Origin: Romeriopsis navalis LEGE 11480
GTDB taxonomy: Bacteria; Cyanobacteriota; Cyanobacteriia; Leptolyngbyales; Leptolyngbyaceae
DNA: 64,000 nucleotides
Assembly (NCBI RefSeq): GCF_015207035.1
Contig: NZ_JADEXQ010000006.1
Location: forward strand, 43,590 to 107,589
Direction: 5' to 3'
Shown here: in pieces, positions 33,269 through 55,513 of the stretch
Numbering within the stretch: position 1 is the first letter of the stretch
How the letters are laid out: each line of letters begins with the position of its first letter
The notes under the pieces: generated by a model
Seen by the model: the letters and a program-made list of their open reading frames with translations, nothing else
Database searches by the model: none
What the model was told of the DNA's origin: nothing
Made by a program: the position numbers and the translations under genes

Positions 33269-36200
33269 ATGCTCAACGCCTTACGGCATCGATGGTTTTG
33301 GCACACACCCTCGAACACAATCCCGGTTGGCATAACAGGGTGCTCAACGCCTTACGGCATCAATGGTTGCGGCACGATAAAATGGCTGAGGCTAAGCGCT
33401 TCATCCTCGGGGTGCTCAACGCCTTACGGCATCAATGGTTGCGGCACCCATTTTTGAGCGCATGCCACGCAAGGATTTTGTTGTGCTCAACGCCTTACGG
33501 CATCAATGGTTGCGGCACCCGCCGCCGATCGTCTGGATTGCTTTTCCGCCTCCGTGCTCAACGCCTTACGGCATCAATGGTTGCGGCACGAACCATGGCG
33601 TAAGCTGCTGGCTGAGCCAGCATGTGCTCAACGCCTTACGGCATCAATGGTTGCGGCACGATCGGACACTATCGAACACTTCCCAAGGCGTAAGTGCTCA
33701 ACGCCTTACGGCATCAATGGTTGCGGCACCTTGGGGCCGAGTTATATCGCCCCGACTCAGCCTAGTGCTCAACGCCTTACGGCATCAATGGTTGCGGCAC
33801 GTTCCGTAGGGGTGAGTTCTGCCCTCGTGCGTTTACGTGCTCAACGCCTTACGGCATCAATGGTTGCGGCACTGACGATACCGAGTGAGACGGTCAGCTC
33901 CTCACCGTGCTCAACGCCTTACGGCATCAATGGTTGCGGCACAAACTTATCATCACTGACTATGATGATCTCGAAGCAGTGCTCAACGCCTTACGGCATC
34001 AATGGTTGCGGCACCCATCAATGTATGGATAGAAAACTGTCCCAGAATGTGCTCAACGCCTTACGGCATCAATGGTTGCGGCACATTTTGTACCATTACG
34101 CGGCCCTCCCAAGTGCCGTTAGTGCTCAACGCCTTACGGCATCAATGGTTGCGGCACGTCAAACAGTTGCCCCCCTTTCCCGTAATAGTTGCTGTGCTCA
34201 ACGCCTTACGGCATCAATGGTTGCGGCACGCCTCCACCTGTATGACTGTAATTTTTCCTTTAATGTGCTCAACGCCTTACGGCATCAATGGTTGCGGCAC
34301 CGCCAAAGTGCCCGCGCCACACCACCCCCTGACATGTGCTCAACGCCTTACGGCATCAATGGTTGCGGCACTATTTTCATGTTGGCGGAAAGCGACAACA
34401 CAATAAGTGCTCAACGCCTTACGGCATCAATGGTTGCGGCACCGTCCCCGGATAGAGGCAAGTTTCGGTTATTTGTGTGCTCAACGCCTTACGGCATCAA
34501 TGGTTGCGGCACCCTTGAATGGGGCCACACTGTTGGCCGGTACAAGCAGTGCTCAACGCCTTACGGCATCAATGGTTGCGGCACTCAAACGGATCACCCG
34601 ATTTGCGAGCGTGAATCAGTGCTCAACGCCTTACGGCATCAATGGTTGCGGCACTAGGTTGAGCGGTTTAAAGAATTGCACTAGGTATCGTGCTCAACGC
34701 CTTACGGCATCAATGGTTGCGGCACGATCGGCAGCCTGACACGAAGAAATCCCGTGCTAGTGCTCAACGCCTTACGGCATCAATGGTTGCGGCACGGTTG
34801 TAAGGATTGACGCCAGAAGGACGAATCTCGTGCTCAACGCCTTACGGCATCAATGGTTGCGGCACAAAAAGTCTTCGATCGCGAATTCGCGGTTGCCCTG
34901 TGCTCAACGCCTTACGGCATCAATGGTTGCGGCACACTGCAAAGCTGTCTACGCTGTTATACGACCTCAAGTGCTCAACGCCTTACGGCATCAATGGTTG
35001 CGGCACAACAATTTGAGCATTTTTCATAGTCTAGTGGAATCGTGCTCAACGCCTTACGGCATCAATGGTTGCGGCACAGGCCCACCACTGTTCACCTGCC
35101 TCAAACCCCAATAGTGCTCAACGCCTTACGGCATCAATGGTTGCGGCACGGTGATGCGTCGGGAGATTAACATCAATGTCTGAGTTGTGCTCAACGCCTT
35201 ACGGCATCAATGGTTGCGGCACAATTATGTTTGTGGGCATCGGGAAAACTTCCCTGAGTGCTCAACGCCTTACGGCATCAATGGTTGCGGCACACAACGG
35301 CCCCGGCAGTATGGCGACTGACTCAAGAGTGCTCAACGCCTTACGGCATCAATGGTTGCGGCACGACGGCAAACTGCTGATTACAGGCACGGGGACAGAC
35401 GTGCTCAACGCCTTACGGCATCAATGGTTGCGGCACATTAAAAGCACCGAGTAACAAGCTGCAAACACTGTCGTGCTCAACGCCTTACGGCATCAATGGT
35501 TGCGGCACCGCCAATCACTTTGCCGCGAAACTTATCAGCAATGTCATCGTGCTCAACGCCTTACGGCATCAATGGTTGCGGCACCGTAACGACTGCAATT
35601 CGGCCAACATTGCTTTTTGGTGCTCAACGCCTTACGGCATCAATGGTTGCGGCACCGACGCCCACCCGCAGGGCATTCAACGACTCAGCGTGCTCAACGC
35701 CTTACGGCATCAATGGTTGCGGCACCCTTCCCTTTTCGTTACTGAGGGAAGGCGTTTTGTTATCGTGCTCAACGCCTTACGGCATCAATGGTTGCGGCAC
35801 TCTCTAACCCGTGCTCATGCCAAGCATCCAAGGTGTGTGCTCAACGCCTTACGGCATCAATGGTTGCGGCACTCTAAATGCTCAGACCATGGAAGGTTCA
35901 ATCTTGCGTGCTCAACGCCTTACGGCATCAATGGTTGCGGCACCAGGACTCACGCACCCAGAAGCATTGCCCCGCGACTGGTGCTCAACGCCTTACGGCA
36001 TCAATGGTTGCGGCACCCGGAATTGACCGCACGTATTCACCACCACTGCGTTGTGCTCAACGCCTTACGGCATCAATGGTTGCGGCACGACCCTGGAATA
36101 GAATCCCCGGTACCAGGGAAGGGTGCTCAACGCCTTACGGCATCAATGGTTGCGGCACAAAACTAACCAACACACAAAGGATAATTATGGAAAGTGCTCA

Positions 36201-36941
36201 ACGCCTTACGGCATCAATGGTTGCGGCACTTGACGGTAGGGAAAGGTATTGCTATAGTGGATAGTGCTCAACGCCTTACGGCATCAATGGTTGCGGCACA
36301 CGACGAGCACTGCCACGACGGCCACCCACACGGTGTGCTCAACGCCTTACGGCATCAATGGTTGCGGCACAGTGTTCTCTATGACCTCGTTACTTGTAGA
36401 GGCTTGTGCTCAACGCCTTACGGCATCAATGGTTGCGGCACACCAGTGGTTCACTCGGTAGGAGTAGCTGATCAAAGTGTGCTCAACGCCTTACGGCATC
36501 AATGGTTGCGGCACAATCCGAGAACAACCTACAGAAGCGATTCCGGGAGTGCTCAACGCCTTACGGCATCAATGGTTGCGGCACGCCTCCCGCCTGAATC
36601 TCCTCTGACTCGAATTGCTGTGCTCAACGCCTTACGGCATCAATGGTTGCGGCACAGGGGGGTTAAGTTTATGTCACCATTACTACTCTGTGCTCAACGC
36701 CTTACGGCATCAATGGTTGCGGCACGTGATCGTCGTCGGTGCCAGCATATTCGTGATCGGCTTGTGCTCAACGCCTTACGGCATCAATGGTTGCGGCACT
36801 ACCCTGCCGCTCGTTCATGTGATTCGGATTCCATTGTGCTCAACGCCTTACGGCATCAATGGTTGCGGCACCTTTGTAAGGCGTGCAAGTTGCGCCACAG
36901 CAACACGTGCTCAACGCCTTACGGCATCAATGGTTGCGGCA
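33269..36941 (-). CRISPR. CRISPR array, 52 repeats and 51 spacers
   Basis: Counted by hand: 52 copies of a 36-bp repeat which on the minus strand starts GTGCCGCAACC, contains GATGCCGTAAGGCGTT (GCC/GGC mini-stem) and ends GGCGTTGAGCAC. Spacers are mostly 34-37 bp, with outliers of 38, 39 and 40. All repeats read as identical except the lowest-coordinate copy (33269-33304), which has four changes. That decay, the cas2-side leader and the co-directional cas genes all indicate minus-strand transcription with the leader at the high-coordinate end. The expected crRNA 5' handle is TTGAGCAC. Cas6 encoded at 45 kb should process it. The near-total repeat identity suggests an active array. Confidence 0.99.
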
Positions 36942-37204
36942 CGGCGTGCTCTCAAAGCCCCATATCAAAGAGTTTGTCAGATAGTTTTGCAAGGACCGAC
37001 TTGTACACAAGCTGGTTATCTCGTAAATAGCCTGAAAACACATGACATCGATTTCCAAGATCTAACTGGTAACCTTCACCTCAAAGGCATCATAGCAAAT
37101 TTGCAAGCATCGATCCCTAGGATCGTACATCCCATAACCCTTATTACTAAACCTTTATAGACTCTTCGTCACATAGCCTATGCTCACACAAGCCTTGATC
37201 CTTG
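36942..37204 (-). promoter_or_regulatory. CRISPR leader
   Basis: The 263 bp between cas2 and the first (leader-proximal) repeat contain no gene and should hold the array promoter and integration signals. Visible elements are a CGATCC-CTA-GGATCG palindrome at 37111-37125, and directly beside the last repeat a GTGCTCTCAAAG stretch resembling the repeat's plus-strand start (GTGCTCAACG). Confidence 0.75.
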
Positions 37205-37498
37205 CTAAATCACTCGAAAACTAGCTTGAGGCTCCTCCCAAACCCCTTCACTGTTGTACTGTGGTACCCGTTCGCAACAACGATGACACAATCCAACCAA
37301 CAATAAATCATCCTCTGGCGTTAGGATCTTCGCCAACTCCCAGCGTAATTTTTCTCGATCACGCTGACTCAAATTCACCCGAAAAATCGATAACTGTACC
37401 GTGCCCCCATACCCCTTCAGGAGCCTAAATGCACGCCGCCACCGCTTCGGACAGCGAATGTCATAACAAATCAGATACTCATGCTTCAACTGCGCCAT
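37205..37498 (-). CDS. cas2: CRISPR-associated endonuclease Cas2
   Basis: A 97-residue protein of normal Cas2 length. It begins with a ferredoxin-like beta strand containing the conserved Asp (YLICYDIRCPKRWRR). Cas2 dimerises between two Cas1 dimers and helps insert new spacers at the leader end. It starts four bases after the cas4-cas1 stop, so the two are surely co-transcribed. It is the last cas gene before the leader. The pair CHRCC near residue 72 is a small unusual feature. Confidence 0.95.
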   Translation of the reverse strand: MAQLKHEYLICYDIRCPKRWRRAFRLLKGYGGTVQLSIFRVNLSQRDREKLRWELAKILTPEDDLLLVGLCHRCCERVPQYNSEGVWEEPQASFRVI

Positions 37499-37502
37499 CT
37501 TC

Positions 37503-39161
37503 CTACCTCACTACCAAACGACCAAATAAACCCGCTTCCCCCATCCATTCCTTTTCCAAAAGCCGCACCTCCAACTCCAGTAAACGCCGATACGTCAGCG
37601 AATAATCTAACGTCGGATGCTTCCACGATTCTGCCTTCCGCTCCTCATATAGCTTGACAAACTTACGACGGCCCAAATTGCTCAGCCATACCTGTTGGCC
37701 TCTAATCACAAAATCTGTGCTCACATCCCACATACCGCGATTAATCGAACTCACCACAATCATGTCCACCAAAGGCACCCGAAAAATTTCCATCAAATCT
37801 AAAGCCAGCGGTGGCGCTTGCGTACGAGGCTGATGATAAAATCCCAACGCCGGTTCTAAGCCCACTGCCAACACTGCATTCATCACATCCTTCAACAACA
37901 TCGCATAGCCAAAACTCAACATTGCATTTACTCGGTCCTTCGGTGGTCGGCGATTACGATGACTAAATCGCAATTCATCAGGTACATCCTTCAATAGTCG
38001 ATCGAGCACATCAAAATATAACCGGGCCAAATTACCTTCAATTCCTAACAGAGAAGCGATCGACCCCGCTTTCCCAACCTGCTTTAGCACTGCCTTCATC
38101 TGTGCAATCGCTTTAGCTAACTCTGGGACATCACGACCTCTGACAGCACGCATCAGGAACTTTCGCTGACTCCGCCCTCGACAAAGAACTAACTGCCGTG
38201 CCAATTCCAGACATACTTCCGGCTGCACCAATGCCTCATACTGACGAATCCGGCGTTGAATGCTACCCTGCCGGGTATCAAAACTACCTAAATATCGGCC
38301 GCCGCCCGACACCAGATGCACACCAATCTCCTGGTCAGAGCAAAAATGCAACGCCTGGGTTGAAATCTGTGAAAAACTATGGAGCACGACTTGCCCCACC
38401 TGGCGTGCGGGAATCACCTCTGGTTTTTCATTGCGGCGCACAATCTTGATTTGCTCTCCTGTACGCCCGACCCTAGTTCCAGGTTCCAACACATGCACCA
38501 CCTGCCGCGTATCATCTTCGGGAAATAACCGTACGGGTTGCCACGATCGATCATTTGCTAACCGGGCTTCTTCTGGCAAACAAACCGGTACGAGTGAACA
38601 ACGGGTACATAATCGTTCGTTCTCTGTTACAGGTGGGCGACAGGTCGAACTTTGAATCTTTCTGGCTGCCGCAATTTTCTCTCTGACCCAAGCACGCCCT
38701 TTATCATCCAAAGGCACGTGCACCAGCACATTATCGGAATGATAACGGACTCTACCTTCGACGATCGTCACACCCAATGCCGATTCCAATAAGCAAGCAT
38801 AAGCCAAAATTTGGAGGCGATCGCTCTCCCATGCTTGCGGCTGTTTATGCTCATCGCGATGAGCTCGACCCCGTTTATGTTCGTAAGGAATGATCTGACC
38901 ATCGCGCTTACGCAGGGCATCAACGCGGCCCCGCAAACCTAACTCAACGCTTTCAAGAAACAGATCTTCCCACTCGCCCGTTTCCTGCTCATCGATATCT
39001 TCGTGTAGAGTCCGACCCGCAAATACAGCAGCATCTTGGGTATAGAGTGCCTCTACTTCTTCTAAGTAAAACAAACGTGGGCAATAGGCAAAAGCATGCA
39101 GTGCAGATACTTTTAACGTTGGAGATAATGTTGTTTGGGGTAACGTTGCAGTTGCATTCAT
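37503..39161 (-). CDS. cas4-cas1: Cas4-Cas1 fusion, spacer acquisition nuclease/integrase
   Basis: A 552-residue fusion. The Cas4 part (about residues 1-210) has FAYCPRLFYLE (first cluster Cys), the RecB nuclease motif IIPYEHKRG and the C-terminal cluster CTRCSLVPVC, so it should bind a 4Fe-4S cluster. The Cas1 part follows, with EGNLARLYF (metal-binding Glu), GFYHQ (His) and LALDLMEIFR (Asp/Glu). Cas1 integrates prespacers, and Cas4 trims them and checks the PAM. Fusions of this kind occur in subtypes I-G and MYXAN-like loci. It is separated from cas5 by 185 bp containing a strong terminator, so the adaptation genes probably have their own promoter. Confidence 0.95.
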   Translation of the reverse strand: MNATATLPQTTLSPTLKVSALHAFAYCPRLFYLEEVEALYTQDAAVFAGRTLHEDIDEQETGEWEDLFLESVELGLRGRVDALRKRDGQIIPYEHKRGRAHRDEHKQPQAWESDRLQILAYACLLESALGVTIVEGRVRYHSDNVLVHVPLDDKGRAWVREKIAAARKIQSSTCRPPVTENERLCTRCSLVPVCLPEEARLANDRSWQPVRLFPEDDTRQVVHVLEPGTRVGRTGEQIKIVRRNEKPEVIPARQVGQVVLHSFSQISTQALHFCSDQEIGVHLVSGGGRYLGSFDTRQGSIQRRIRQYEALVQPEVCLELARQLVLCRGRSQRKFLMRAVRGRDVPELAKAIAQMKAVLKQVGKAGSIASLLGIEGNLARLYFDVLDRLLKDVPDELRFSHRNRRPPKDRVNAMLSFGYAMLLKDVMNAVLAVGLEPALGFYHQPRTQAPPLALDLMEIFRVPLVDMIVVSSINRGMWDVSTDFVIRGQQVWLSNLGRRKFVKLYEERKAESWKHPTLDYSLTYRRLLELEVRLLEKEWMGEAGLFGRLVVR

Positions 39162-39346: not shown

Positions 39347-40093
39347 TTATTGAGCAACTTCCACTGTTTCTGGCATTCTGGGGGTCCATGTCCAAGCTAA
39401 TTCCGGGGGGGAATGTACAGCATTTTCCATTGGCGCATACAGAAAACTACTAGTTTTACTATTATCTGCACGATTAATGCCTACAGTCAGGCGATACGAA
39501 CCTCGTCTCGGACGATCGTCTGGCTGCATTCGTAAATACCAACGAGTCAAAGGCGGTTCATCCATGATGTCAATTTGGTCAAACAGGAAACTGTTATCCC
39601 CAGCGAATGGCAACCCATATCGGGATTCATTGAGCTGGCCCTTGAGCCCCAGTTGAACCCGTTCTAAGATTTCTTGCTCTGCCTGAACACCCAAAATCAT
39701 ATCTAATCCAACTAAAACTTCACGCCTTACCGGAGTAATCCAATATTTGGCTCCATGCGTACGCAACTTCAATTCTTTTCCCGATGCACCGACGGGATAA
39801 CTATGTAATTGCTGATAAAGCGTGGAAACAGCACTTTCCGTTACTGGGATTACTTCATCACTCTCGGTTTCATAGCAAGGAGTACCAATAGCTAAGTTCA
39901 AACAAGGTAGATCCTGACGAATTAACGTTGTTACACCAGGAGTAGAATCGCGCATCTCTATGCTGGCTAAATTCAAAACTAACCCAAATGCTGCGGACGG
40001 GGGCATGATAGGGCTTGTAGAACGATAAACACCGGCTTGAAAAGCACGAAAGGCGGCAAAAGGTGCCCGAATGCGTAACCATAGATATTCCAT
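39347..40093 (-). CDS. cas5: Cas5 (Cmx5/DevS-like) Cascade subunit
   Basis: A 248-residue RAMP protein. The N-terminal strand and helix WLRIRAPFAAFRAFQAGVYRSTSPIMPPSAAFGLVLNL matches the Cas5 N-terminus, with the glycine-containing thumb and the P-P-S-A segment. Cas5 binds the crRNA 5' handle and contacts the large subunit and Cas7 backbone in Cascade. The ATG directly follows the cas7 stop with no spacer, indicating translational coupling. Relationship to the DevS/Cmx5 group is suggested by the partner genes. Nuclease activity is not expected because a separate Cas6 is present. Confidence 0.87.
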   Translation of the reverse strand: MEYLWLRIRAPFAAFRAFQAGVYRSTSPIMPPSAAFGLVLNLASIEMRDSTPGVTTLIRQDLPCLNLAIGTPCYETESDEVIPVTESAVSTLYQQLHSYPVGASGKELKLRTHGAKYWITPVRREVLVGLDMILGVQAEQEILERVQLGLKGQLNESRYGLPFAGDNSFLFDQIDIMDEPPLTRWYLRMQPDDRPRRGSYRLTVGINRADNSKTSSFLYAPMENAVHSPPELAWTWTPRMPETVEVAQ

Positions 40094-40984
40094 TTACTTC
40101 TCCCCAGACTCCAAAAACTCATTTGCCAATGCTGCTAGAAGCCCTTGTGGATTGTCGTAAAAGTGAACACCAACCTTAGTTAAGCGTTCTTTTTCGTTCG
40201 GTTCCATATTTCGAGCAAGCTCCCCGCCAATCCAGAACTCTTCTCCCGGCAAATCATCTGACTTGATCCGAGATAGTTCCTTAAAACCACCTTCTTCATT
40301 AAATCCATAGGTGTCGTATCCCGCAATCAGACTAGGAGTCAACCGTGCCACAATACTTTTAGGAGCCATTTCGTAGTAGCTTCGAGCATGTCCCCCAGCG
40401 ACATCTGACAGTTGCGAGATCGCACTAATTAATGCTTTTGTCCACTCTGGTTTAGGCTGACAATCTGAATGTGCCAATGCAAAAGGATATTGATAAGCTG
40501 TATGCGCTACCTCACGGTGTAGTAATGCTGAGGTAGAGGCATTTTTCCAAGGGCTAGTACCCGCATTTAAAGGTGATTGATGGAAAGTTGCATCAAAACG
40601 ATAGGGCGTAAGTGCGACAGCCATATTCATCCGCAAAACACTATCCCGCTTTGGTGGCAAGCCTTTATTTTTCTTGATCGCATTATTGTCAGCCACCATA
40701 AAGCCCAATAAAAAATCATCGGCAAATTTCTCAGCATTGGGAAATTCTTGAAACTCAACGGCAAGTTGTTCCTGATCATGTAACCGTTTTCGATTACATG
40801 GCAAGCCTGTCTTGATTAGCATTTCCCGTAGTGCATTACGCATAGATTCCGGGCTAATAACAGTATATTCTTGTTTCCCCTTAGCAATCTTTTGCAGAAC
40901 TGTGCGATTTTCCTCACTCTCACCCCTGTAGTTTGAACTAGGCGCAGGATAGGTCAGAATACTGGCAAATAGATTCTTAGTCAT
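40094..40984 (-). CDS. cas7: Cas7 (DevR-like) Cascade backbone subunit
   Basis: A 296-residue protein of the DevR/Cst2 Cas7 group. It starts NLFASILTYPAPSSNYRGE, has the VISPESMRNALREMLI motif near residue 45, typical of DevR-type Cas7, and a central TSPWKNASTSALLHREVAHTAYQYPFAL block. Several copies coat the crRNA spacer and create the six-nucleotide periodicity of type I R-loops. That periodicity is relevant to the mini-CRISPR near 46.2 kb. It is 32 bp downstream of cas8 and directly upstream of cas5. Confidence 0.9.
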   Translation of the reverse strand: MTKNLFASILTYPAPSSNYRGESEENRTVLQKIAKGKQEYTVISPESMRNALREMLIKTGLPCNRKRLHDQEQLAVEFQEFPNAEKFADDFLLGFMVADNNAIKKNKGLPPKRDSVLRMNMAVALTPYRFDATFHQSPLNAGTSPWKNASTSALLHREVAHTAYQYPFALAHSDCQPKPEWTKALISAISQLSDVAGGHARSYYEMAPKSIVARLTPSLIAGYDTYGFNEEGGFKELSRIKSDDLPGEEFWIGGELARNMEPNEKERLTKVGVHFYDNPQGLLAALANEFLESGEK

Positions 40985-41016: not shown

Positions 41017-42684
41017 TTAGCTATTGGCGGAAAGTGCCAACAACGTCAGTGTCCGGACTTTTTCGGTATCTTGATACAAGGCTTGGGTCAGTGCTACGAA
41101 TGCTTCAGGCTTCATATTCTGAGGAACAGAACAGAGCGTTGAGACGAAATAGTTGATGAAGTCTTCTTGCTCTGTACGACTACGGATATCTAAAAATGCG
41201 GACTTCGCAATTTTTGTTTTTTTGTCTGAATAATCTTTGTAACCCGGCTGAGCTGATAATTCATCAGACTTTAATTTGGACCAGTTTTTTTCCCATTCCA
41301 AGCTATATTTACCTTTTAGCTTACGATTAACGTAATTCTTAACAAGCTGGAAAATCATCGGCTCAATACTAACGTTGGGGTCAGAATCAGTCATCTGTTG
41401 TGTTTCCTTAATCATGTCCTCAAGTTTTATACGTACATCTCGCTTAAAATACTCGTCTTTCAAACTTCGCTCATAGGAAAGCGTGCAGAGCAAAGCATCA
41501 AATCCCTCATACCAAGGCGAATGGTTCACCAAATTCAGTAGGCACTGTCGTCGGAATAGCGGACTCCAAAAACCCTGACGAATCTGAGTATATTCATCAT
41601 TCATCAGATCATCAGGATCGAGTCGAGCCATACTCAGTAGACGGACATTATTTCCTTGTTTTTCTGTATGGATAACATCTATCCCAAAAACGGCATCAGC
41701 AGTTGATTGGTCGCCGCTGGCAAGCGATAATCGCTCCCCTAGGCGCTTCATCATATCGAGTGCACTTTCTAGTGCAAGATCAACGACTGCTTCACGTGGC
41801 CGATATCCTGAGGGTTGCGGTGAGCGGTCTCGCATAAGCATTGGCAATTCATCACAGAACCACTCTAATCTCGCAATGTCAGGAATCGCGATCGCGTATC
41901 CAACAAAGTTACGTTTACCTTCGTTATCAACAACGGCAGGCACATAAATTTGGGCCGCAAATAACCAGAAATGGAGCAAAAATTGGAATCTTGCTCGATC
42001 CTTAAAACCTATATTCTCCGCGTTATATGCCTGTGCCCCTAAGAAATAAGTGCTTGGCAGATCTACAGTAAAGTCGTCTGGCTTTAGCAATTGCTTCCAT
42101 ACAGAGACTGCATCATCAGCTGGCAACCCATCAGCTCTTAGCTGAAATGGTTTGCGGGTCGCGGGCACGCCCCTCAGGATACTCCAGACCATATCACGCC
42201 ATAACTTTACCCAAAGACCATTTTTACCATCTGAGCTTTGATCGAAGGATGCATCAGCGAGGAAAGAGCCACGTGGAACATCGACTGGATAGATATAGGC
42301 TTTCTTCTTCTTCGTTTTCCCTTTTGCATCTACCTCGTCATATTCTTCTTCGCGTAATGGAGGGATAATCTCTTTTTGCTTATTCTTGAGCGGCTGGTTT
42401 CGTCTTTGCTCCTCTTTAGTGGCCGCATAAATTTCATCAAATAGGCAAGCAACTCCATCTTGATTCAGCTCAATTGCCGCACCATCATCATCAAACTGCA
42501 GTAACTTACAAATCATCCCGTCTTTAACCTTCTGCTGAAAAGCATTTTGACGTTTTAACCATTGCATGACGAGTATTAAACCGGCCAAGCCTGCTCGATG
42601 CTGTGATGAAGGTAATTCAGCCAGGCGATACTTCAGTGTTAACTGAGTAACTTCTTGTTTCTGTTTTATTTTTGTCTTAGCCAA
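41017..42684 (-). CDS. cas8: Cas8, Cmx8-like large subunit (I-MYXAN type)
   Basis: I use a TTG start at 42682-42684: GGAGG lies six bases upstream and the frame then begins (M)AKTKIKQKQEVTQLTLKYRL. A GTG at 42720 opens the same frame but lacks support. The 555-residue protein has the early segment LTLKYRLAELPSSQHRAGLAGLILVMQWL, which I associate with the Cmx8 family of MYXAN loci (placed among Cas8b variants in some schemes). A Lys/Glu-rich linker lies around residues 95-130. The large subunit recognises the PAM and positions Cas3. Its start overlaps the cas3 stop by eight bases. The subtype name is from memory of family patterns. Confidence 0.82.
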   Translation of the reverse strand: MAKTKIKQKQEVTQLTLKYRLAELPSSQHRAGLAGLILVMQWLKRQNAFQQKVKDGMICKLLQFDDDGAAIELNQDGVACLFDEIYAATKEEQRRNQPLKNKQKEIIPPLREEEYDEVDAKGKTKKKKAYIYPVDVPRGSFLADASFDQSSDGKNGLWVKLWRDMVWSILRGVPATRKPFQLRADGLPADDAVSVWKQLLKPDDFTVDLPSTYFLGAQAYNAENIGFKDRARFQFLLHFWLFAAQIYVPAVVDNEGKRNFVGYAIAIPDIARLEWFCDELPMLMRDRSPQPSGYRPREAVVDLALESALDMMKRLGERLSLASGDQSTADAVFGIDVIHTEKQGNNVRLLSMARLDPDDLMNDEYTQIRQGFWSPLFRRQCLLNLVNHSPWYEGFDALLCTLSYERSLKDEYFKRDVRIKLEDMIKETQQMTDSDPNVSIEPMIFQLVKNYVNRKLKGKYSLEWEKNWSKLKSDELSAQPGYKDYSDKKTKIAKSAFLDIRSRTEQEDFINYFVSTLCSVPQNMKPEAFVALTQALYQDTEKVRTLTLLALSANS

Positions 42685-45076
42685 GATCCACCTCCTCTGG
42701 TGCTTTAGCAATAAATCCACGTTCAGGGTTCTCGTAATGCCCCGTAGCTAGAGCCACACCTAAATATTTTGGAAGCCAGGTATGATGTTCCGTTTCCATA
42801 TTGGCGAATTTCTTCGGAACATTAATAATGAACTCTTCTTTTTTGTACTTTACGTCTGAGTTCCATACCGCCTCAAACGCATCCAAATCACAATCTAAAA
42901 TGCAGGGAACGGAAAAGTCATCCGTTTCGCGAAAGCTGCCGGGTATTGCGTAGTAACCACTATCTAAAAACCGGGAATTACCATCGGAAGCTCGTTCATC
43001 TTGGGAATAACGTTCTAATGCAGCTGCTAACTCATACTGGCTGACTGAATTATGGCTTAGCGCCTGAATAAAGTAGTTTGCGACCTTTAAATCTTCTTTG
43101 GTATAAGGCTTGATGCTACCTTTGGGAGGAGCATATGTATGAATTTTGGCTCGAAATTCAGCACCTCTTGCTAAATGACGATTTGCCCTCCCAAACCGTT
43201 GCACTAGTGATGGTACAGGTGCCAGTTCTGTAATTAATACATCTGCATCTAAGTCAAGACTCATTTCACAGACTTGAGTTGTCACGGCGATGATCGGTTT
43301 CCGTTCACCCTGGTCTTTTTCATACGCAAACGCGGCAATCGTATTTTTATGGACCCTCTGGCGATCCTTTAATCGAAACCGACTGTGATAAGTCAACACA
43401 TTGATTTTGAGTTGGCTCTCCATTTTTTCCGCAATAGCAATGCAGCGATCGACTGTATTGACAACCCAAAGAACTCTTTCGCCTGCCTCATAAGCCGTAA
43501 ACGCTTTCTCAAATGCATCATGGAAATTCTCAACAGGTTCTAAATCATAGCGAGGGTGTTCCTCTTTCTTTTGAAGATCCTCTAAGGTTTGTCGATCGCT
43601 CTCAGTTGGGAAAACCTTTAACCCTGCATCAATGAGTTGTTGCTTCCTGCCATTGGGCAATGTTGCTGTCATACATAAAACCGGGAGATTAAAATGCTTT
43701 AAAAAGCTGATGAGAGTATCAAACATCCGCTGATCAAAGCTATGAACTTCATCAATAATGACGGCACTGTCCGCCAAAACCGGTAACAAGCAAAGGCTCG
43801 GATAGCTATGCTCCATGAATCCTAGAAATTGATCGACTGTGGCACTAAAGTAGCGACGCGACCAAAACCCCAAGGAATATAGTCGTTCATCCGCTTGAAA
43901 ATCTTTACCCTTAATCGAGTCACTAGGGTTTTCTTGCATTGCCTCCAACTCATATCTAGCTGTCCCTGTCATGAGTGCAGCATCTGTTTCTGGAGCCCAT
44001 CCTACGTAATCTCGAAAGCCTTCAGTCGCAGTTCCGCGAGTTGGATAAAGGAAAATCACTTTACCAAGGTTATAACGCTTGATCTGCGACTCAGCCCACA
44101 TCCAAGCACCCAAAGTTTTGCCAGCGCCACAAGCAGCTAGAAGTAGCGATCGATCGCTTTGTTGGGCAATCTGAATTTGAAAACTGTGCGGTTTGAATGG
44201 CTTCCCAGTGAGTTCTTCAATCTGCTTGGCCCGAGGTTGAAGAATAGAATTGACAATATCAACTGGTGCGATTGCTCTTGAATGAACTACATCGTCAATC
44301 CAAGATGCAATGTCTTTCTCATTACGCACCAACCCTGAAGCCGCAGAGTCCGCGACTATGAGTCCAGCTTTTACCGCGACAAGCAATTGTTTTCTTGCCT
44401 GGTCTTTCTTAATCTCTCGACTAAAATACCTCCCATTACTCTTACCGCTTCTATAGGCCTTTTCCCAAATTGAACCGTTGCTCCAAGGGGCATTGGGCAA
44501 ATTGGGAATACCAGATAACTTCGCAATGTCGGCAATCCGTTCCAGTGTTGCCTTGATTTCATGATGCTGGAAATATAGCTCAACTAAGTTCCTTGTCGAT
44601 TGAGGTTGACACCAGCGGTAAGCCTTAAATTTTTCGGTTGATTCATCGCTCTGTTGTACTGCAGTTTCCTTCTCAGAGGCTTTCAAATGATGCGATAAAA
44701 CGGCTGCTGTAATTACCTCAATATCTAAAGCCTGATTTGAGGCTAACCATTGCCGAATCTCTGGTAAGCATAAAGCCAAAGCACTAAGATGTTCATGTCT
44801 CAGTGTTTGAGCTAGGAAACCAGGAGTGGTGACTGCGGCATAGAAGTCAGCATTTGCTTTACCGATGTCATGGAACAATGCTGCAACTCGTAAATTGAGC
44901 AAAAATATTTCCTTTTCAGTGTCGCCATCTAGCTGAAAAAACCGGCACCAATTTTGGCCCCATCGACCATCCAACCGAAAAATTAAAGTTGCAGCAGATT
45001 CAGCATCAAGCAAGTGTTGCTTTAAGCTCAAGCGTGGTTTACTCTTAGCCAATAGTACTTCAGGAGCTTCAGACAT
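42677..45076 (-). CDS. cas3: Cas3 helicase-nuclease (HD and DExH domains)
   Basis: A 799-residue protein from the ATG at 45074-45076, which has GGAGGT seven bases upstream; a longer frame to 45178 is out of keeping with the family. The N-terminal HD nuclease has ALFHDIGKAN (about residue 66) and further His residues. The helicase has Walker A AACGAGKT (about 315), DEVH in VIIDEVHSFD (about 440), TATLP (motif III) and QRFGRANRH (motif VI). Both activities therefore look intact, so the system should degrade DNA and is not a nuclease-dead relic. It is recruited by Cascade after R-loop formation. It overlaps cas6 and cas8 by eight bases each. Confidence 0.95.
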   Translation of the reverse strand: MSEAPEVLLAKSKPRLSLKQHLLDAESAATLIFRLDGRWGQNWCRFFQLDGDTEKEIFLLNLRVAALFHDIGKANADFYAAVTTPGFLAQTLRHEHLSALALCLPEIRQWLASNQALDIEVITAAVLSHHLKASEKETAVQQSDESTEKFKAYRWCQPQSTRNLVELYFQHHEIKATLERIADIAKLSGIPNLPNAPWSNGSIWEKAYRSGKSNGRYFSREIKKDQARKQLLVAVKAGLIVADSAASGLVRNEKDIASWIDDVVHSRAIAPVDIVNSILQPRAKQIEELTGKPFKPHSFQIQIAQQSDRSLLLAACGAGKTLGAWMWAESQIKRYNLGKVIFLYPTRGTATEGFRDYVGWAPETDAALMTGTARYELEAMQENPSDSIKGKDFQADERLYSLGFWSRRYFSATVDQFLGFMEHSYPSLCLLPVLADSAVIIDEVHSFDQRMFDTLISFLKHFNLPVLCMTATLPNGRKQQLIDAGLKVFPTESDRQTLEDLQKKEEHPRYDLEPVENFHDAFEKAFTAYEAGERVLWVVNTVDRCIAIAEKMESQLKINVLTYHSRFRLKDRQRVHKNTIAAFAYEKDQGERKPIIAVTTQVCEMSLDLDADVLITELAPVPSLVQRFGRANRHLARGAEFRAKIHTYAPPKGSIKPYTKEDLKVANYFIQALSHNSVSQYELAAALERYSQDERASDGNSRFLDSGYYAIPGSFRETDDFSVPCILDCDLDAFEAVWNSDVKYKKEEFIINVPKKFANMETEHHTWLPKYLGVALATGHYENPERGFIAKAPEEVDLG

Positions 45077-45743
45077 CTTTGAACCTCCATGCACCAGGAA
45101 AGGGAGAAAATACGCCACACCCCATGCGGCGCTTTCCACCAAGACCCCATGCTTGCAATTTGAGAGAGTGTTCATCACTCAGTTCAGTAATTGCAACGCT
45201 GAATCCCACAACTGAATATTTTTTAATTTTGATTGCTTTACGCAATGGGTTCCCGTCTATATCTAAAGGGATATAAACATTGCCGATGATCTCTAATGCA
45301 TCCATTTGCCGCTTTACTGCGTCTAAAAATGGTTCTGGGTCTTGAAACTTTTTAATTGTGACAATTCGCGATCGTAATTTGTCAAAAGGGCGTAATGGAA
45401 AAATTTGCGGGATACCTAGCTGGATTTCATGAGTTCCAATTCTTAGTGTTTGCCCAGCCAGTGGCAAAATCTGAGCTATTTGATTGGCATCGTAGGGCAG
45501 TCGAATTCTCAACTGCGCTCCTTTAGATAGATGGATCTTGCCTTGATAATCACGCTCGCCAGCAATTGTTGAGATACTAATTCCATCTTGTTCATGAACA
45601 GTTGGGCAACGACGTGCGATAGCGCTGTATAAACCGTACCCATGATCTGATGGCAAAGTTTGGCCAATGATTTCAAAACTTAGTTCGACAAATGTAATCT
45701 GACGATCAGTATTCTGATCGTCTTGTATTTCCGTACAAAACAT
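45069..45743 (-). CDS. cas6: Cas6 (Cmx6-like) crRNA endonuclease
   Basis: A 224-residue RAMP protein. A Gly-rich loop near the C-terminus (WGLGGKRRMGCGVFSPF, about residues 198-214) is characteristic of Cas6. His residues near position 52-60 (CPTVHEQDG) are candidates for the catalytic site. It should cut pre-crRNA within the repeat, leaving an 8-nt 5' handle. Similarity in length and C-terminus to the MYXAN Cas6/Cmx6 family is noted. It starts the compact interference operon with cas3 (8-bp overlap). A 149-bp gap separates it from a small coiled-coil ORF upstream. AGGTGATT precedes the ATG. Confidence 0.85.
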   Translation of the reverse strand: MFCTEIQDDQNTDRQITFVELSFEIIGQTLPSDHGYGLYSAIARRCPTVHEQDGISISTIAGERDYQGKIHLSKGAQLRIRLPYDANQIAQILPLAGQTLRIGTHEIQLGIPQIFPLRPFDKLRSRIVTIKKFQDPEPFLDAVKRQMDALEIIGNVYIPLDIDGNPLRKAIKIKKYSVVGFSVAITELSDEHSLKLQAWGLGGKRRMGCGVFSPFPGAWRFKDV

Positions 45744-45892
45744 GAATCACCTACAAAAACTTGAAATTAGAACGCAATTTCTGATTAGGATTTGAACATA
45801 GATGACTTCAACACCCGCATATGAAGATTGATCAGCACCTAACGGTATCGATTTGGGAATAGAGAATTAAGGATGGGTGTCGCCAAGCTAAT

Positions 45893-46111
45893 TTATAAAT
45901 CGCTATCCATATCGTAGCGTTGGCGTAGTTCTTCGACTTCGTGAGTGAGGGGATCTAGGCGAAACTCGATTTGCTCACGCAATCGGTCAGCCTGATCTTG
46001 CAAAATTACAAGCATTTCTTGGATATTGGCTAGAGAAAGACGAAGCGTTTCAAGTTCGGACCAGCGATCAAACATAGACAATGAAGGGATGACGATTGTT
46101 ATGCCTCCCAT
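45893..46111 (-). CDS. Small coiled-coil protein, candidate first gene of the cas operon
   Basis: A 72-residue frame from an ATG at 46109-46111; a 60-residue form from the ATG at 46073-46075 (MFDRWSELETLRLSLANIQE) fits a candidate promoter better. The shorter form is almost wholly helical with heptad-like spacing of Leu/Ile (LETLRLSLANIQEMLVILQD, then DRLREQIEFRLDP) and is acidic at the end. No family is recognised and no strong ribosome-binding site precedes either start. It lies between the mini-CRISPR and cas6 on the same strand. It may be a Cascade-linked accessory protein, a product kept repressed by the mini-CRISPR, or not expressed. Confidence 0.5.
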   Translation of the reverse strand: MGGITIVIPSLSMFDRWSELETLRLSLANIQEMLVILQDQADRLREQIEFRLDPLTHEVEELRQRYDMDSDL

Positions 46112-46138
46112 AGTAATGCAGTCTTTTTGAAAAAACAA
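46110..46138 (-). promoter_or_regulatory. Candidate promoter for the cas interference operon
   Basis: On the minus strand TTGTTT (46138-46133) and TACTAT (46115-46110) are 17 bases apart, each a moderate match to sigma70-type -35 and -10 boxes. A transcript would start near 46103, just before the ATG at 46075. The mini-CRISPR target and its PAM-like triplet lie directly upstream of the -35 box. Confidence 0.35.
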
Positions 46139-46140
46139 GT

Positions 46141-46160
46141 ATGAAGAGAATACGACCTTA
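46141..46160 (+). promoter_or_regulatory. Putative target (PAM plus seed) of the mini-CRISPR guide
   Basis: ATG (46141-46143) is followed by AAGAGAATACGACCTTA (46144-46160). The mini-CRISPR spacer begins AAGAGGATACGTCCTTA. Fifteen of 17 bases agree; the two mismatches are at positions 6 and 12, and position 18 mismatches too. Beyond it the agreement falls to background (3 of 10). The site is 2 bp from the candidate -35 box. Confidence 0.75.
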
Positions 46161-46181
46161 AGAACTATTGGCTTGCGAAGC

Positions 46182-46283
46182 GATAAAATCGCCTTTCGGC
46201 ATCAATGGATTTCGAGAACCAGCACATTGTGTAAGGACGTATCCTCTTGTGCTCAACGCCAATGGCATCAGTGAGCATGTGTC
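46182..46283 (-). CRISPR. Degenerate two-repeat mini-CRISPR, CreR/CreA-like guide
   Basis: Minus-strand order: a degenerate repeat (46283-46249) ending with GGCGTTGAGCAC, identical to the last 12 bases of the array repeat and so carrying the full TTGAGCAC handle; a spacer of about 31 nt (46248-46218); and a second degenerate repeat (46217-46182) whose core CCATTGATGCCGAAAGGCG (46208-46190) matches 18 of 19 array-repeat bases. Both copies keep a GCC/GGC mini-stem, while the flanks have decayed. This is what selection for one processed crRNA-like RNA, with loss of recombination or adaptation competence, would leave. It sits between the WYL regulator and the cas operon. Confidence 0.82.
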
Positions 46284-46312
46284 TATCATAGTTCCTTTGC
46301 CTGCTACTAAGG

Positions 46313-47293
46313 TCATACATTCCCCTCCTGATAAAACACATTCATGCCAGATAACTCAGCTCTTACCATCTCCACCAGCGCTGGTGGCCCTAGCACCCTA
46401 GCCCCCGCGCCATAAAACAGCACCCATCGCTTCACCTCATTCAGCCCCGGCACCTCTATTCGTAGCGTCACTGCACCATCAGTATGTTTTTCGATCGTCT
46501 GTGACTGATGCCAGCGTCGTTCCACAATGTAAGGAGCCGTTGCCGCATCAAACCAAATCTCCACCAACTTTGGCTCACCCCCGACCTCATGCTGAAACAT
46601 CCGCTCAAAATGTGCTTTCCGATCGAACGTCGCACTCACCTCAAACTTTTGCTTCAGAACCTTCAACTTCCGAATCCGATCAACCCGAAAATCCCGCACC
46701 ATTTGCCGTGAATGGCACCAGCCTGTTACATAAGGGTTATTGCGCGAAATGTGCAATACGTATACATCAAACTCGCGCTCTGACTCCGGTTTTCCGGGTG
46801 TTCCATAGCGCATCCAAACTCGTCGCTTGGTTTGACAAGCCTGTTCTAACCGCTGCCAAATCACTGGATTCAAATCCAATTCTGCACCCACGCGAAACAT
46901 CACATTTTCCTGGGCTAACTGTTGTAAATCCACCTCCATCGGCACAGGTAGACGCTCCGCTAGACGTGAGACTGCACTGCGAAGCTCCTCGCGGTAGGCT
47001 GACCCAGCATAAGCATTCAGCATCTGTGCCCCCAGTGTTAGTGCAAACAATTCACCCTGAGTTAAAGGAATTGATGGTAGTCGCCAAGTTTCATCGGTGT
47101 AGTAGTAGCCCTGACTCTTGCTAGACGTAATCGGTGCTTCATACCGATTGCGCATAAACTCAATGTCACTTCGTATCGTCCGCTCATTCACCTCTAGCTT
47201 TTCTGCCATCATTGGTGCGGTTGCCCGCATCGACGATCGCAGCATGGCATCAATTTCGAGAAAACGCTCTAAACGAATTGGCGTCATCTTCAT
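46313..47293 (-). CDS. WYL-domain transcriptional regulator next to cas genes
   Basis: A 326-residue protein from the ATG at 47291-47293, with GGGAG eight bases upstream; a TTG seven codons earlier is less likely. Residues 1-60 hold a winged helix-turn-helix (MMAEKLEVNERTIRSDIEFMRNRY). Residues about 155-230 form a WYL-like domain (KRRVWMRYGTPGKPESEREFDVYVLHISRNNPYVTGWC), followed by a WCX-like C-terminus. WYL proteins sense nucleic acids or nucleotides and often control CRISPR or other defence loci. It is upstream of the mini-CRISPR and cas operon on the same strand. Its stop is 30 bp before the mini-CRISPR, which could therefore lie in its 3' untranslated region. Confidence 0.88.
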   Translation of the reverse strand: MKMTPIRLERFLEIDAMLRSSMRATAPMMAEKLEVNERTIRSDIEFMRNRYEAPITSSKSQGYYYTDETWRLPSIPLTQGELFALTLGAQMLNAYAGSAYREELRSAVSRLAERLPVPMEVDLQQLAQENVMFRVGAELDLNPVIWQRLEQACQTKRRVWMRYGTPGKPESEREFDVYVLHISRNNPYVTGWCHSRQMVRDFRVDRIRKLKVLKQKFEVSATFDRKAHFERMFQHEVGGEPKLVEIWFDAATAPYIVERRWHQSQTIEKHTDGAVTLRIEVPGLNEVKRWVLFYGAGARVLGPPALVEMVRAELSGMNVFYQEGNV

Positions 47294-47596
47294 AAGCACG
47301 TCTCCCAAATCCAATTGCCCATAGCCTAAGCCACCAACCCGGAAAAAAACGATCCGGGTTAACTGATATGAGTAAATATTTTGTGATTACGATCGAGAAA
47401 CACACATATCCCACACTCAGATTCTAAGATTGAGTCTAAAAATCAGCATAGGAACAATAATCTTAAGGCTTAAGACATCAAACATTGGTTTTCTTTTAAA
47501 TAAAATCACTTTTTCAGCGAAATTCGAGAATTAAGCCGATATCACCCTGTTCTGAACTAGCGTTTAGTGAGGATGCTTGAGTCTTTGTCTCACCAA
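47294..47596. other. AT-rich intergenic region upstream of the WYL gene
   Basis: About 300 bp between the WYL gene and the end of the pseudogene, both on the minus strand. It is AT-rich in 47340-47530 and should carry the WYL promoter. No repeat, RNA gene or clear operator was found. Confidence 0.4.
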
Positions 47597-48163
47597 CTAT
47601 GACTGTTCTAAAGGACTCCGATTTTGTGTAGCTGCCGCGATCGCCTGCTCGATTCGCTTCAGTCTTGTGGCATCTCGTTTCGCTGTCTCAATCCAGTAGA
47701 CAATATTTTGGGTTTTGGCGTTGCTGAAGTGATCAAAATTGACTTTGGCCGTGGGATGACTTGCGAGAGCAGTCGCTAAGTCATCGGGTACAAACAGCGC
47801 TTCAGCATCATCGAGAAAAGTCTAAGAGCCATCTTGCTTTGCGGCTGCGATTTTGGCCATACCCGCTTCAGTCATCAAGCCTGCGGCAATCAGTTATTCA
47901 ACATATTGTTTATTGACCTTCGACCAAATGCTCTCCGGCTTGCGCGGGGTCATAACCTGCCTCTTCGTCGATCGACTGGGTTTTCCTGTCAATCCAGCCA
48001 AAGCAAAGGCATTCTTGAACAACTTTCTCGTAGCGAATGCTGGGTTTACTGCTTTTGATCTTGTAACAGACCAGCTAAATATCTTGGGAAGTCTTGTGAT
48101 TGCCGGTTAACCACTGTCACCAAGTGGCCTGATCTGCTTGAGCTGCGCTTCAAACTTGCTCAT
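47597..48163 (-). pseudogene. Decayed YdeI/OmpD-associated family gene
   Basis: The minus strand from an ATG at 48161-48163 reads MSKFEAQLKQ, then meets a stop and several frameshifts. It recovers as TPRKPESIWSKVNKQYVE, stop, LIAAGLMTEAGMAKIAAAKQ, stop, TFLDDAEALFVPDDLATALA, and ends NRSPLEQS. The same protein is intact at 54920-55513, where the corresponding stretches are ITPRKPGSVWSKVNKQYIEE and LIAAGLMTDAGLAKITAAKQ. At least three in-frame stops plus frame changes make it non-functional. It is therefore a dead paralogue of the downstream gene. Confidence 0.9.
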
Positions 48164-54919: not shown

Positions 54920-55513
54920 TTAATTGGATCGTTTTTCCAAGGGGCTCCGACCCTGCGCGGCGGAGTCCACGGTCTGTTCAATGCGTTTCAGTCTTGTGGT
55001 GGCTCGCTTGGCCGTCGCAATCCAGTAGAGGATATTTTTCTGATTGGTATTGCTAAAGTTATCGAAGTTTGTTTTGGCCGTACGATTACTTGAAAGAGCG
55101 ACTGCCAAATCCTCTGGCACAATCAGCGCTTCAATGTCATCAAGAAAGGTCCAAGAACCATCTTGTTTTGCCGCAGTAATTTTGGCTAACCCAGCATCGG
55201 TCATCAAACCGGCGGCGATTAGTTCTTCAATATACTGCTTATTGACCTTTGACCAGACGCTACCAGGTTTGCGCGGTGTGATAATTTGACGATAACGTTC
55301 AGCGTCGATTGACTGGGTTTTACTGTCAATCCAGCCAAAACAAAGGCATTCCTGGACAACTTCTTCGTAACGAATACTGGACTTACCGCTCTTGATTTTG
55401 TAGTAGACCAGCCAGACGCCTGGAGAAGTCGTATGGTTGTTGACCAACCACTGCCGCCAAGCTGCGCGATCGACCGCATAAACTTCCGTTAACTGATCGT
55501 CAAACTTTCCCAT
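54920..55513 (-). CDS. YdeI/OmpD-associated family protein
   Basis: A 197-residue protein. The pattern VWLVYYKIKSGKSSIRYEEVVQECLCFGWIDSK, then ITPRKPGSVWSKVNKQYIEELIAAGLM and a C-terminal YWIATAKRATTRLKRIEQTV, fits the YdeI/OmpD-associated family (sometimes called bacteriocin-protection proteins). The biochemical function is unclear. It is convergent with the receiver gene and starts four bases downstream of the alpha/beta hydrolase stop, so the two are probably one transcript. A decayed paralogue is at 47597-48163. Confidence 0.87.
   Translation of the reverse strand: MGKFDDQLTEVYAVDRAAWRQWLVNNHTTSPGVWLVYYKIKSGKSSIRYEEVVQECLCFGWIDSKTQSIDAERYRQIITPRKPGSVWSKVNKQYIEELIAAGLMTDAGLAKITAAKQDGSWTFLDDIEALIVPEDLAVALSSNRTAKTNFDNFSNTNQKNILYWIATAKRATTRLKRIEQTVDSAAQGRSPLEKRSN

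Follow-up and report, generated by a model that had tools for sequence, protein, structure and literature searches.

A mini-CRISPR of two degenerate repeats stands before the type I-B cas operon of this cyanobacterial genome, and the guide between its repeats matches a PAM-flanked site lying on the way to the cas genes. The guide follows the handle of the array repeats, its pairing skips every sixth base, guide and target co-vary among relatives, and in many of these the target holds a fixed place by promoter-like sequence. Judged from these patterns in the DNA, the mini-CRISPR is very probably a CreR-type guide, with which the cell's own type I-B (Cmx8) Cascade would sit on the site and likely repress the operon. 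CreR is known for I-B systems, and the element described here would add a member to that kind. Throughout, the window denotes the whole 64,000-nucleotide stretch of DNA that was analysed.

Read along the minus strand, the locus opens with a WYL regulator gene and continues through a gap of about 240 bp that contains the mini-CRISPR, followed by a 60-aa ORF, cas6, cas3, cas8b, cas7, cas5, cas4-cas1 and cas2. The cas operon in the window is complete:

46313..47314, minus strand: WYL/WCX-domain regulator (PF13280, PF25583), upstream of the mini-CRISPR
45069..45743, minus strand: cas6 (Cmx6), predicted processing nuclease (TIGR02807, 227.3 bits)
42677..45178, minus strand: cas3, start codon uncertain (TIGR01587, 163.9 bits)
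41017..42720, minus strand: cas8b (Cmx8), Cascade large subunit (TIGR04413, 703.7 bits)
40094..40984, minus strand: cas7, assigned by position and an E of 8e-18, under the NCBIfam cut-off
39347..40093, minus strand: cas5 (Cmx5) (TIGR02586, 113.5 bits, cut-off 111.5)
37205..39161, minus strand: cas4-cas1 fusion and cas2, annotated at the Pfam/NCBIfam level
33269..36942, minus strand: CRISPR array, 51 exact 36-nt repeats (33340-36942) and a degenerate terminal copy at 33269

The degenerate terminal repeat at 33269 places the array leader toward the cas genes, and the array was therefore taken as read on the minus strand. By NCBIfam naming the system is type I-MYXAN, and the closest solved relatives of its Cas8 are PDB entries 8h67 (E 3e-117) and 8ip0 (E 3.7e-117), both of which are the type I-B Cascade of Synechocystis sp. 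PCC 6714. An Rfam search of the window gave no match. The word GCGATCGC, which we take to be a cyanobacterial marker, occurs 27 times in the window against about one occurrence predicted from base composition. Elsewhere in the window, 47606-48134 is 72-78% alike to 54935-55471, which is 7.3 kb away and lies within a 197-aa ORF; the former looks like a decayed copy of the latter.

The mini-CRISPR and its target comprise the following parts:

46285..46290, minus strand: candidate -10 box TATGAT of the guide RNA gene, with an identical TATGATA in the same place in the related locus L038
46249..46283, minus strand: psiR1, degenerate upstream repeat, whose last 12 bases, GGCGTTGAGCAC, are the exact end of the array repeat
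46249..46256, minus strand: predicted 5' handle of 8 nt, TTGAGCAC, the same 8 nt with which all 51 exact array repeats end
46232..46248, minus strand: guide positions 17 to 1, AAGAGGATACGTCCTTA, the first part of the 31-nt spacer 46218-46248
46182..46217, minus strand: psiR2, degenerate downstream repeat, a 22/36 ungapped match to the array repeat
46144..46160, plus strand: target (protospacer) AAGAGAATACGACCTTA, which up to position 17 mismatches the guide at 6 and 12 only
46141..46143, plus strand: PAM ATG, as read in the sequence

The original prediction had described two decayed repeat copies around one 31-nt spacer, with an upstream copy that retains the exact last 12 bases of the array repeat, and this is what the minus strand holds from 46283 to 46182. 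The upstream copy, psiR1, keeps the hairpin AUGCC-AUU-GGCGU, matches the covariance model with 20.9 bits (E 0.0024 in 129 kb; L001 2678-2712) and folds at -12.1 kcal/mol (z -2.7). In psiR2 the stem GATGCC-GAAA-GGCG is kept and the handle is lost; its repeat-profile score is 26.6, its covariance-model score 9.6 bits (E 2, filters off), and its RNA fold is no better than that of shuffles (z -0.3). Before the guides of relatives the handle is kept exactly or nearly.

Guide and target agree at 15 of 17 positions, positions 18-20 differ and the remainder is at background, so that the predicted match of the spacer start to 46144-46160, failing at 6, 12 and 18, can be read directly off the sequence. 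The accompanying claim that the match exceeds chance also held. With up to two mismatches allowed, the target at 46144-46160 is the sole site for the guide in the 6.47-Mb assembly, and in the 64-kb window a single ATG-flanked site has at least 10 of the 15 fixed positions, this one having all 15. When 1146 array spacers, preceded by the same handle as the mini-CRISPR guide, were run as decoy guides against their own cas upstream regions, no site reached 13/17 and two sites reached 12. One distance needs correction: the 22 bp said to separate site and guide span from the target only as far as the edge of psiR2 (46182), and the 17th base of the guide lies 71 bp off. An ordinary self-targeting array spacer is disfavoured, given a match that stops at 17 of 31 positions, degenerate repeats and 0 of 1146 array spacers with such a site. 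Two features of CreR are found here: a guide gene bearing CRISPR-repeat-like sequences outside an array, and a guide partly complementary to a PAM-flanked site before the cas operon.

Several better-studied systems indicate how such a guide could act. For the I-B Cascade of Synechocystis 6714, the available part of the source gives 5'-AYG-3' as the best PAM and describes a crRNA bound in a 5+1 pattern, every sixth base being flipped out (PMC11096372), which documents, for a Cmx8-type Cascade, both the ATG PAM and the base flipping named in the original prediction. The seed-only pairing of CreA guides has its counterpart in a two-segment seed: mutational tests of haloarchaeal CreA showed that segments 1-5 and 7-11 must pair and that positions 6 and 12 are dispensable, and repression requires Cascade, not Cas3 (PMC8501985, in the text available). 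In Parageobacillus I-B, guides of at most 26 nt are described to repress without cutting (PMC10551041, likewise in part). Taken together, the CreA seed rules and short-guide repression in I-B lead one to expect that a 17-position guide binds and represses. CreR guides are described as acting on cas promoters in I-B, I-E and V-A systems (PMC13131331, in the portion available), with release of the block by crRNA or anti-CRISPR proteins (PMC12737573, likewise).

By analogy we infer for this genome a chain from CreR pairing through repression to release. A promoter directly before psiR1 would transcribe the mini-CRISPR, and cleavage by Cas6 at both repeats would leave the 8-nt handle TTGAGCAC; the predicted guide RNA would start UUGAGCAC at 46256. 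Loaded with this guide, Cascade would read the ATG PAM and the segments 1-5, 7-11 and 13-17, with the sixth bases flipped out. Cas3 would not be expected to cut the target, because pairing ends after position 17. Bound Cascade would block the promoter or read-through, and free crRNA or anti-CRISPR proteins occupying Cascade would lift this block, so that the Cas level would follow demand.

Can the same pattern be found in relatives? A cas6-based locus search matched 70 of the 388 genomes of the class, the window's genome included, at 72 places; the 71 other places and one Chamaesiphon MAG contig brought the first set to 73 loci. A usable upstream region was present in 67 of them, two being too short and four occupied by array. 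These 67 regions were scanned for guide-target pairs regardless of the handle, with a threshold of 14-15 of 15 positions (6 and 12 masked), which yielded 313 pairs. Only 18 of these follow a handle, and 17 of the 18 have an ATG, the remaining TTG pair being an extra pair in L051; among the 295 pairs without handle the flanks are scattered. The element is present in 19 of the 67 loci, with ATG as PAM in 18 and TTG in the last (L049). No two of the 19 guides are identical, even the closest pair differing at 4 of 17 positions, and every guide fits the target in its own locus.

Position by position, guide and target are identical in 19, 19, 19, 19 and 18 of the 19 elements at positions 1-5, in 19, 19, 14, 18 and 18 at 7-11, and in 19, 18, 17, 17 and 14 at 13-17, high values that are partly by construction as the 15-position mask was taken from the original prediction. 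Identity is 5/19 at position 6, 4/19 at position 12, 3/19 at position 18 and 2 to 7 of 19 at positions 19 to 31, the positions from 18 onward never having been selected on. A mask-free test removes the bias: combining 98 handle sites with ATG sites gave 4589 pairs, of which 21 had at least 13/17, and dropping 6 and 12 was the best of all 136 two-position masks (16 pairs; next 11). The mismatches at 6, 12 and from 18 on are those that the 5+1 geometry of Cascade predicts. Within the second segment, guide position 9 is less conserved than the rest (14/19, and 8/12 in the second set described below).

The element of L038 is homologous to that of the window, its flanks and ORF aligning (in an alignment with shifted columns at the target). 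Between the two, positions 7, 11, 14 and 16 have changed in guide and target alike, while position 17 is broken in L038. Together with the per-position identities, these compensations bear out the expectation that guide and target co-vary in relatives with mismatches at every sixth base. Independent drift of the two would have spoken against the proposal; the opposite is seen, with self-matching in 19 of 67 loci and 12 of 28 in a second set, and co-evolution of guide and target, our own yardstick, is what these loci display.

This second set comes from a single family, of which the first set had three loci (L053, L055, L067). It takes in 28 of 45 family matches, three of the others being already in the first set and 14 left out. 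Under the same rules the element was found in 12 of the 28 loci, with identity at positions 6, 12 and 18 in 3, 2 and 2 of the 12. In both sets together the real handle leads to a match at an ATG site in 30 of 95 loci, whereas 193 shuffled handles gave a mean of 1.07 and a maximum of 5. In L142 the counted pair places the target some 390 bp upstream of the guide, probably a chance match, and inspection by eye showed a better target with two segments. L136, L138 and L142 pair through about 12-14 positions only; L136 and L138 were not counted, and the targets of all three were placed by hand for the promoter and distance counts. Weaker pairs of handle and target, also uncounted, are found in L057 (12/15), L063 (12/15) and L067 (11/15). 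By the criteria used the element is absent from 48 of the 67 first-set and 16 of the 28 second-set loci. Further searches of the family gave no new places, L124-L128 being repeats of known ones. In L065 one guide matches two ATG-flanked sites (14/15 and 13/15), which lie at -620 and -56 from cas6; a small unnamed ORF follows one of them, and cas6 comes directly after the other.

The resulting 31 guide-target pairs, one of them doubtful, amount to a natural mutagenesis of Cascade: positions 1-5, 7-11 and 13-17 are needed, and 6, 12 and 18 onward are ignored. They also provide a search rule for use elsewhere, namely an array handle together with a PAM-flanked, sixth-base-tolerant match before cas genes. 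If the proposed regulation is true, many of these cyanobacterial I-B loci control themselves via a guide recognizable in the sequence itself, and Cas dosage, anti-CRISPR sensing and the avoidance of self-cutting become testable in tractable cyanobacteria.

In a CreR system the target would lie at the cas promoter. The window offers one candidate:

46110..46138, minus strand: weak promoter-like pair TTGTTT-17-TACTAT, candidate cas promoter beside the PAM

This pair has 7 of 12 matches to the sigma-70 consensus, and 82% of shuffles are as good; on the sense strand of the window's cas upstream region the scan found no promoter at its threshold. The proposed -35 box by the site is too weak to stand alone. 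Since the window's own promoter is poor, the position of the promoter rests on the relatives, many of which do carry a candidate by the target. Of the 28 same-strand targets, three of which were placed by hand, 17 have a TTGAC box that starts 38-43 bp ahead of the PAM and 11 have none there, and this spacing puts the predicted transcription start near the start of the target. Promoter-like pairs with at least 10/12 occur near the target in 6 of 19 first-set elements against 0.4 expected, and in 8 of 14 second-set targets against 0.64 expected. The window's orientation is shared by 5 of the 19 elements. Among these, L038 and L051 have a -35-like box in contact with the PAM or overlapping it, the window and L037 have one at a distance of 2-3 bp, and L043 has no such box by its PAM. 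The pairs in the same placement read TTGCCG-17-TATGAT in L038 and TTGACA-17-TATCAT in L051, the latter overlapping the PAM.

The likeness to CreR is set by review descriptions, as far as these are available: a crRNA-like guide, a partial match to the cas promoter and an effector that represses its own operon (PMC13131331, PMC12737573). What differs here is the effector, a Myxan-kind I-B complex with Cmx8 (window) or Cas8a1/Cmx1 (relatives), and the ATG PAM. Our literature search found no paper on the guide element or on the hairpin psiR3 (see below) in cyanobacteria; as it retrieved no primary CreR paper, a cyanobacterial CreR may already be in print. The I-B CRISPR-associated transposons, in which guides direct homing, have a related Cas8: the solved structure nearest to the Cas8 of L055 is 8fcj, which we take to belong to one of these transposons. 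In contrast to these transposons, the window has cas3, cas1 and cas2, and the target lies beside the guide before the cas genes. CRISPR repeats outside arrays are also known from Racr, the solitary phage repeats that act as RNA anti-CRISPRs (PMC10651486, in the part available), whereas the repeats here are in a cas locus, around a guide with a matching site.

A parallel in anatomy is haloarchaeal I-B CreA, with two degenerate repeats and an 8-nt 5' handle in psiR1 that is lost in psiR2 (PMC9458426, in the portion available) and with a seed at 1-5 and 7-11 to which 6 and 12 are dispensable (PMC8501985, likewise). This raises the alternative that the guide silences a toxin, as in CreTA or CrePA, and not the cas genes, the toxin being freed when Cascade fails. 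Its candidate would be the small frame behind the target:

45896..46075, minus strand: 60-aa ORF (MFDRWSELETL...), the first likely frame after the target, stop at 45893-45895, coiled-coil-like by eye

The ORF belongs to a conserved family. A protein search, made without genomic context, found eight homologues among JGI/ENA proteins, six of which start MFDRW or MFDSW while the others have MFDRW within 12 residues; the family pattern is MFDRWS-L-LRLSL...EVEELRQRYD, and the homologue in L038 is 52.5% identical over 59 residues. The longer 81-codon frame of the ORF has no Pfam or NCBIfam match. Besides the window, 8 of the other 18 elements have a frame of 53-68 codons after the target, mostly coiled-coil-like by eye, and CreA is known to pair in the same manner through 1-5 and 7-11 (PMC8501985, in the text available). 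Seed pairing with 6 and 12 free is indeed found here, yet it concerns mechanism and does not decide membership in CreTA. What argues for the cas genes is distance: in 6 of the 19 elements the gap between target and cas6 is only 8-149 bp, which leaves cas6 as the sole gene in reach, and in 10 of 14 second-set targets it is 119-218 bp (a count of distances only). CreA silences an RNA toxin, whereas the site in the window stands before cas genes, and the 60-aa ORF is presumably unlike the short CreT RNAs. Most guides here also have a third paired segment, 13-17, in contrast to CreA, with L136, L138 and L142 looking two-segmented. We regard control of a toxin as unlikely. The two readings are compatible, since the ORF could be the leading gene of the cas operon; alternatively, it may be the gene under control.

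Control of the cas operon by the guide has also to be set against simple decay, that is, an old self-targeting spacer or array stump that survived by chance. Both repeats are degenerate, and in the window psiR2 has no handle and folds no better than shuffles, as a dead remnant would. Yet matching is retained at the paired positions, with 6, 12 and 18 onward at background level, the changes between the window and L038 are compensated, which is not expected from drift, and a handle lost in psiR2 and kept in psiR1 is what has been reported for haloarchaeal creA genes (PMC9458426, in the portion available). A remnant is therefore very improbable.

An RNA hairpin or attenuator, in which inverted guide and target let a read-through transcript fold on itself, could apply to the window and to L037, L038, L043 and L051, where the two lie on opposite strands, but they lie on the same strand in 14 of 19 first-set and 12 of 12 second-set elements, where such self-pairing of a transcript is impossible, and the ATG by the target, the mismatches at 6 and 12 and the handle by the guide would go unexplained, which makes this idea scarcely credible. 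Just as hard to believe are operator repeats of a DNA-binding protein such as the adjoining WYL regulator, fallen by chance inside a decayed repeat: the matched words vary between genomes and start exactly after the CRISPR handle, and the search found no same-strand WYL gene upstream in 8 of the 19 loci that carry the element.

Across the 73 loci the element is found in 6 of 17 with Cmx8, in 10 of 48 nearer Cas8a1/Cmx1 (many of them distant), in 3 of 6 with an early contig end and in neither of two unclassified ones, the Cas8 classes being those of tblastn with an NCBIfam/Pfam check on part of the proteins. Where the WYL gene abuts cas6 there is no room for the element, and it occurs in 0 of 27 loci; of the loci with a more distant WYL gene 11 of 19 have it, as do 8 of the 27 in which none was found on the same strand, distances being those of best tblastn hits, some of them partial. 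In L008, L009 and the cas6 hits of G198, G239 and G250, cas6 and the stretch upstream share one frame of 547-554 codons, split by a single TAG, which is probably WYL and cas6 in the same frame.

A third repeat-like structure lies in the leader of cas6:

45829..45848, minus strand: psiR3, hairpin (GATACCGTTAGGTGCTGATC) in the cas6 leader, 8.2 bits, E 5 (L001 2258-2277), weak alone

Hairpins of this type, GAT-CC-loop-GG, stand about 50-200 nt before cas6 and are found in the cas6 leaders of L037, L043, L049-L051, L055, L029, L131, L132, L135, L141 and L149-L152; the covariance model scores best in L021 (15.1 bits, E 0.05). The motif, which was defined once examples had been inspected, is present in sense orientation in 16 of the 27 loci that bear the element and have room for the hairpin, compared with 5 of 65 other loci; in antisense orientation the counts are 0 of 27 and 2 of 65. 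Three of the five motif-bearing others (L057, L067, L138) may be missed elements. Against an in-gene control that itself contains array pieces, 9 of 16 repeat profiles, L065 included, exceed the 95th percentile (10.8), and one exceeds the 99th, that of L065, where the hit is its psiR2. A search for a second guide after psiR3 gave no pair that reached 12/15. From its sequence, psiR3 is a possible Cas6 site in the enzyme's own mRNA, which suggests a loop at the level of Cas6. More tentatively, there might be two RNA-guided loops, one in which guide-led Cascade would shut the cas promoter and another in which Cas6 would bind or cut psiR3 in its own leader. If so, effector and processing enzyme would each sense their own excess.

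A final observation concerns the origin of the repeats in one relative. In L070 those of the mini-CRISPR (psiR2 GACGCC...GGCG) are unlike the repeat of its own array (GACTCC...GGAG), as if they had been taken from another system.
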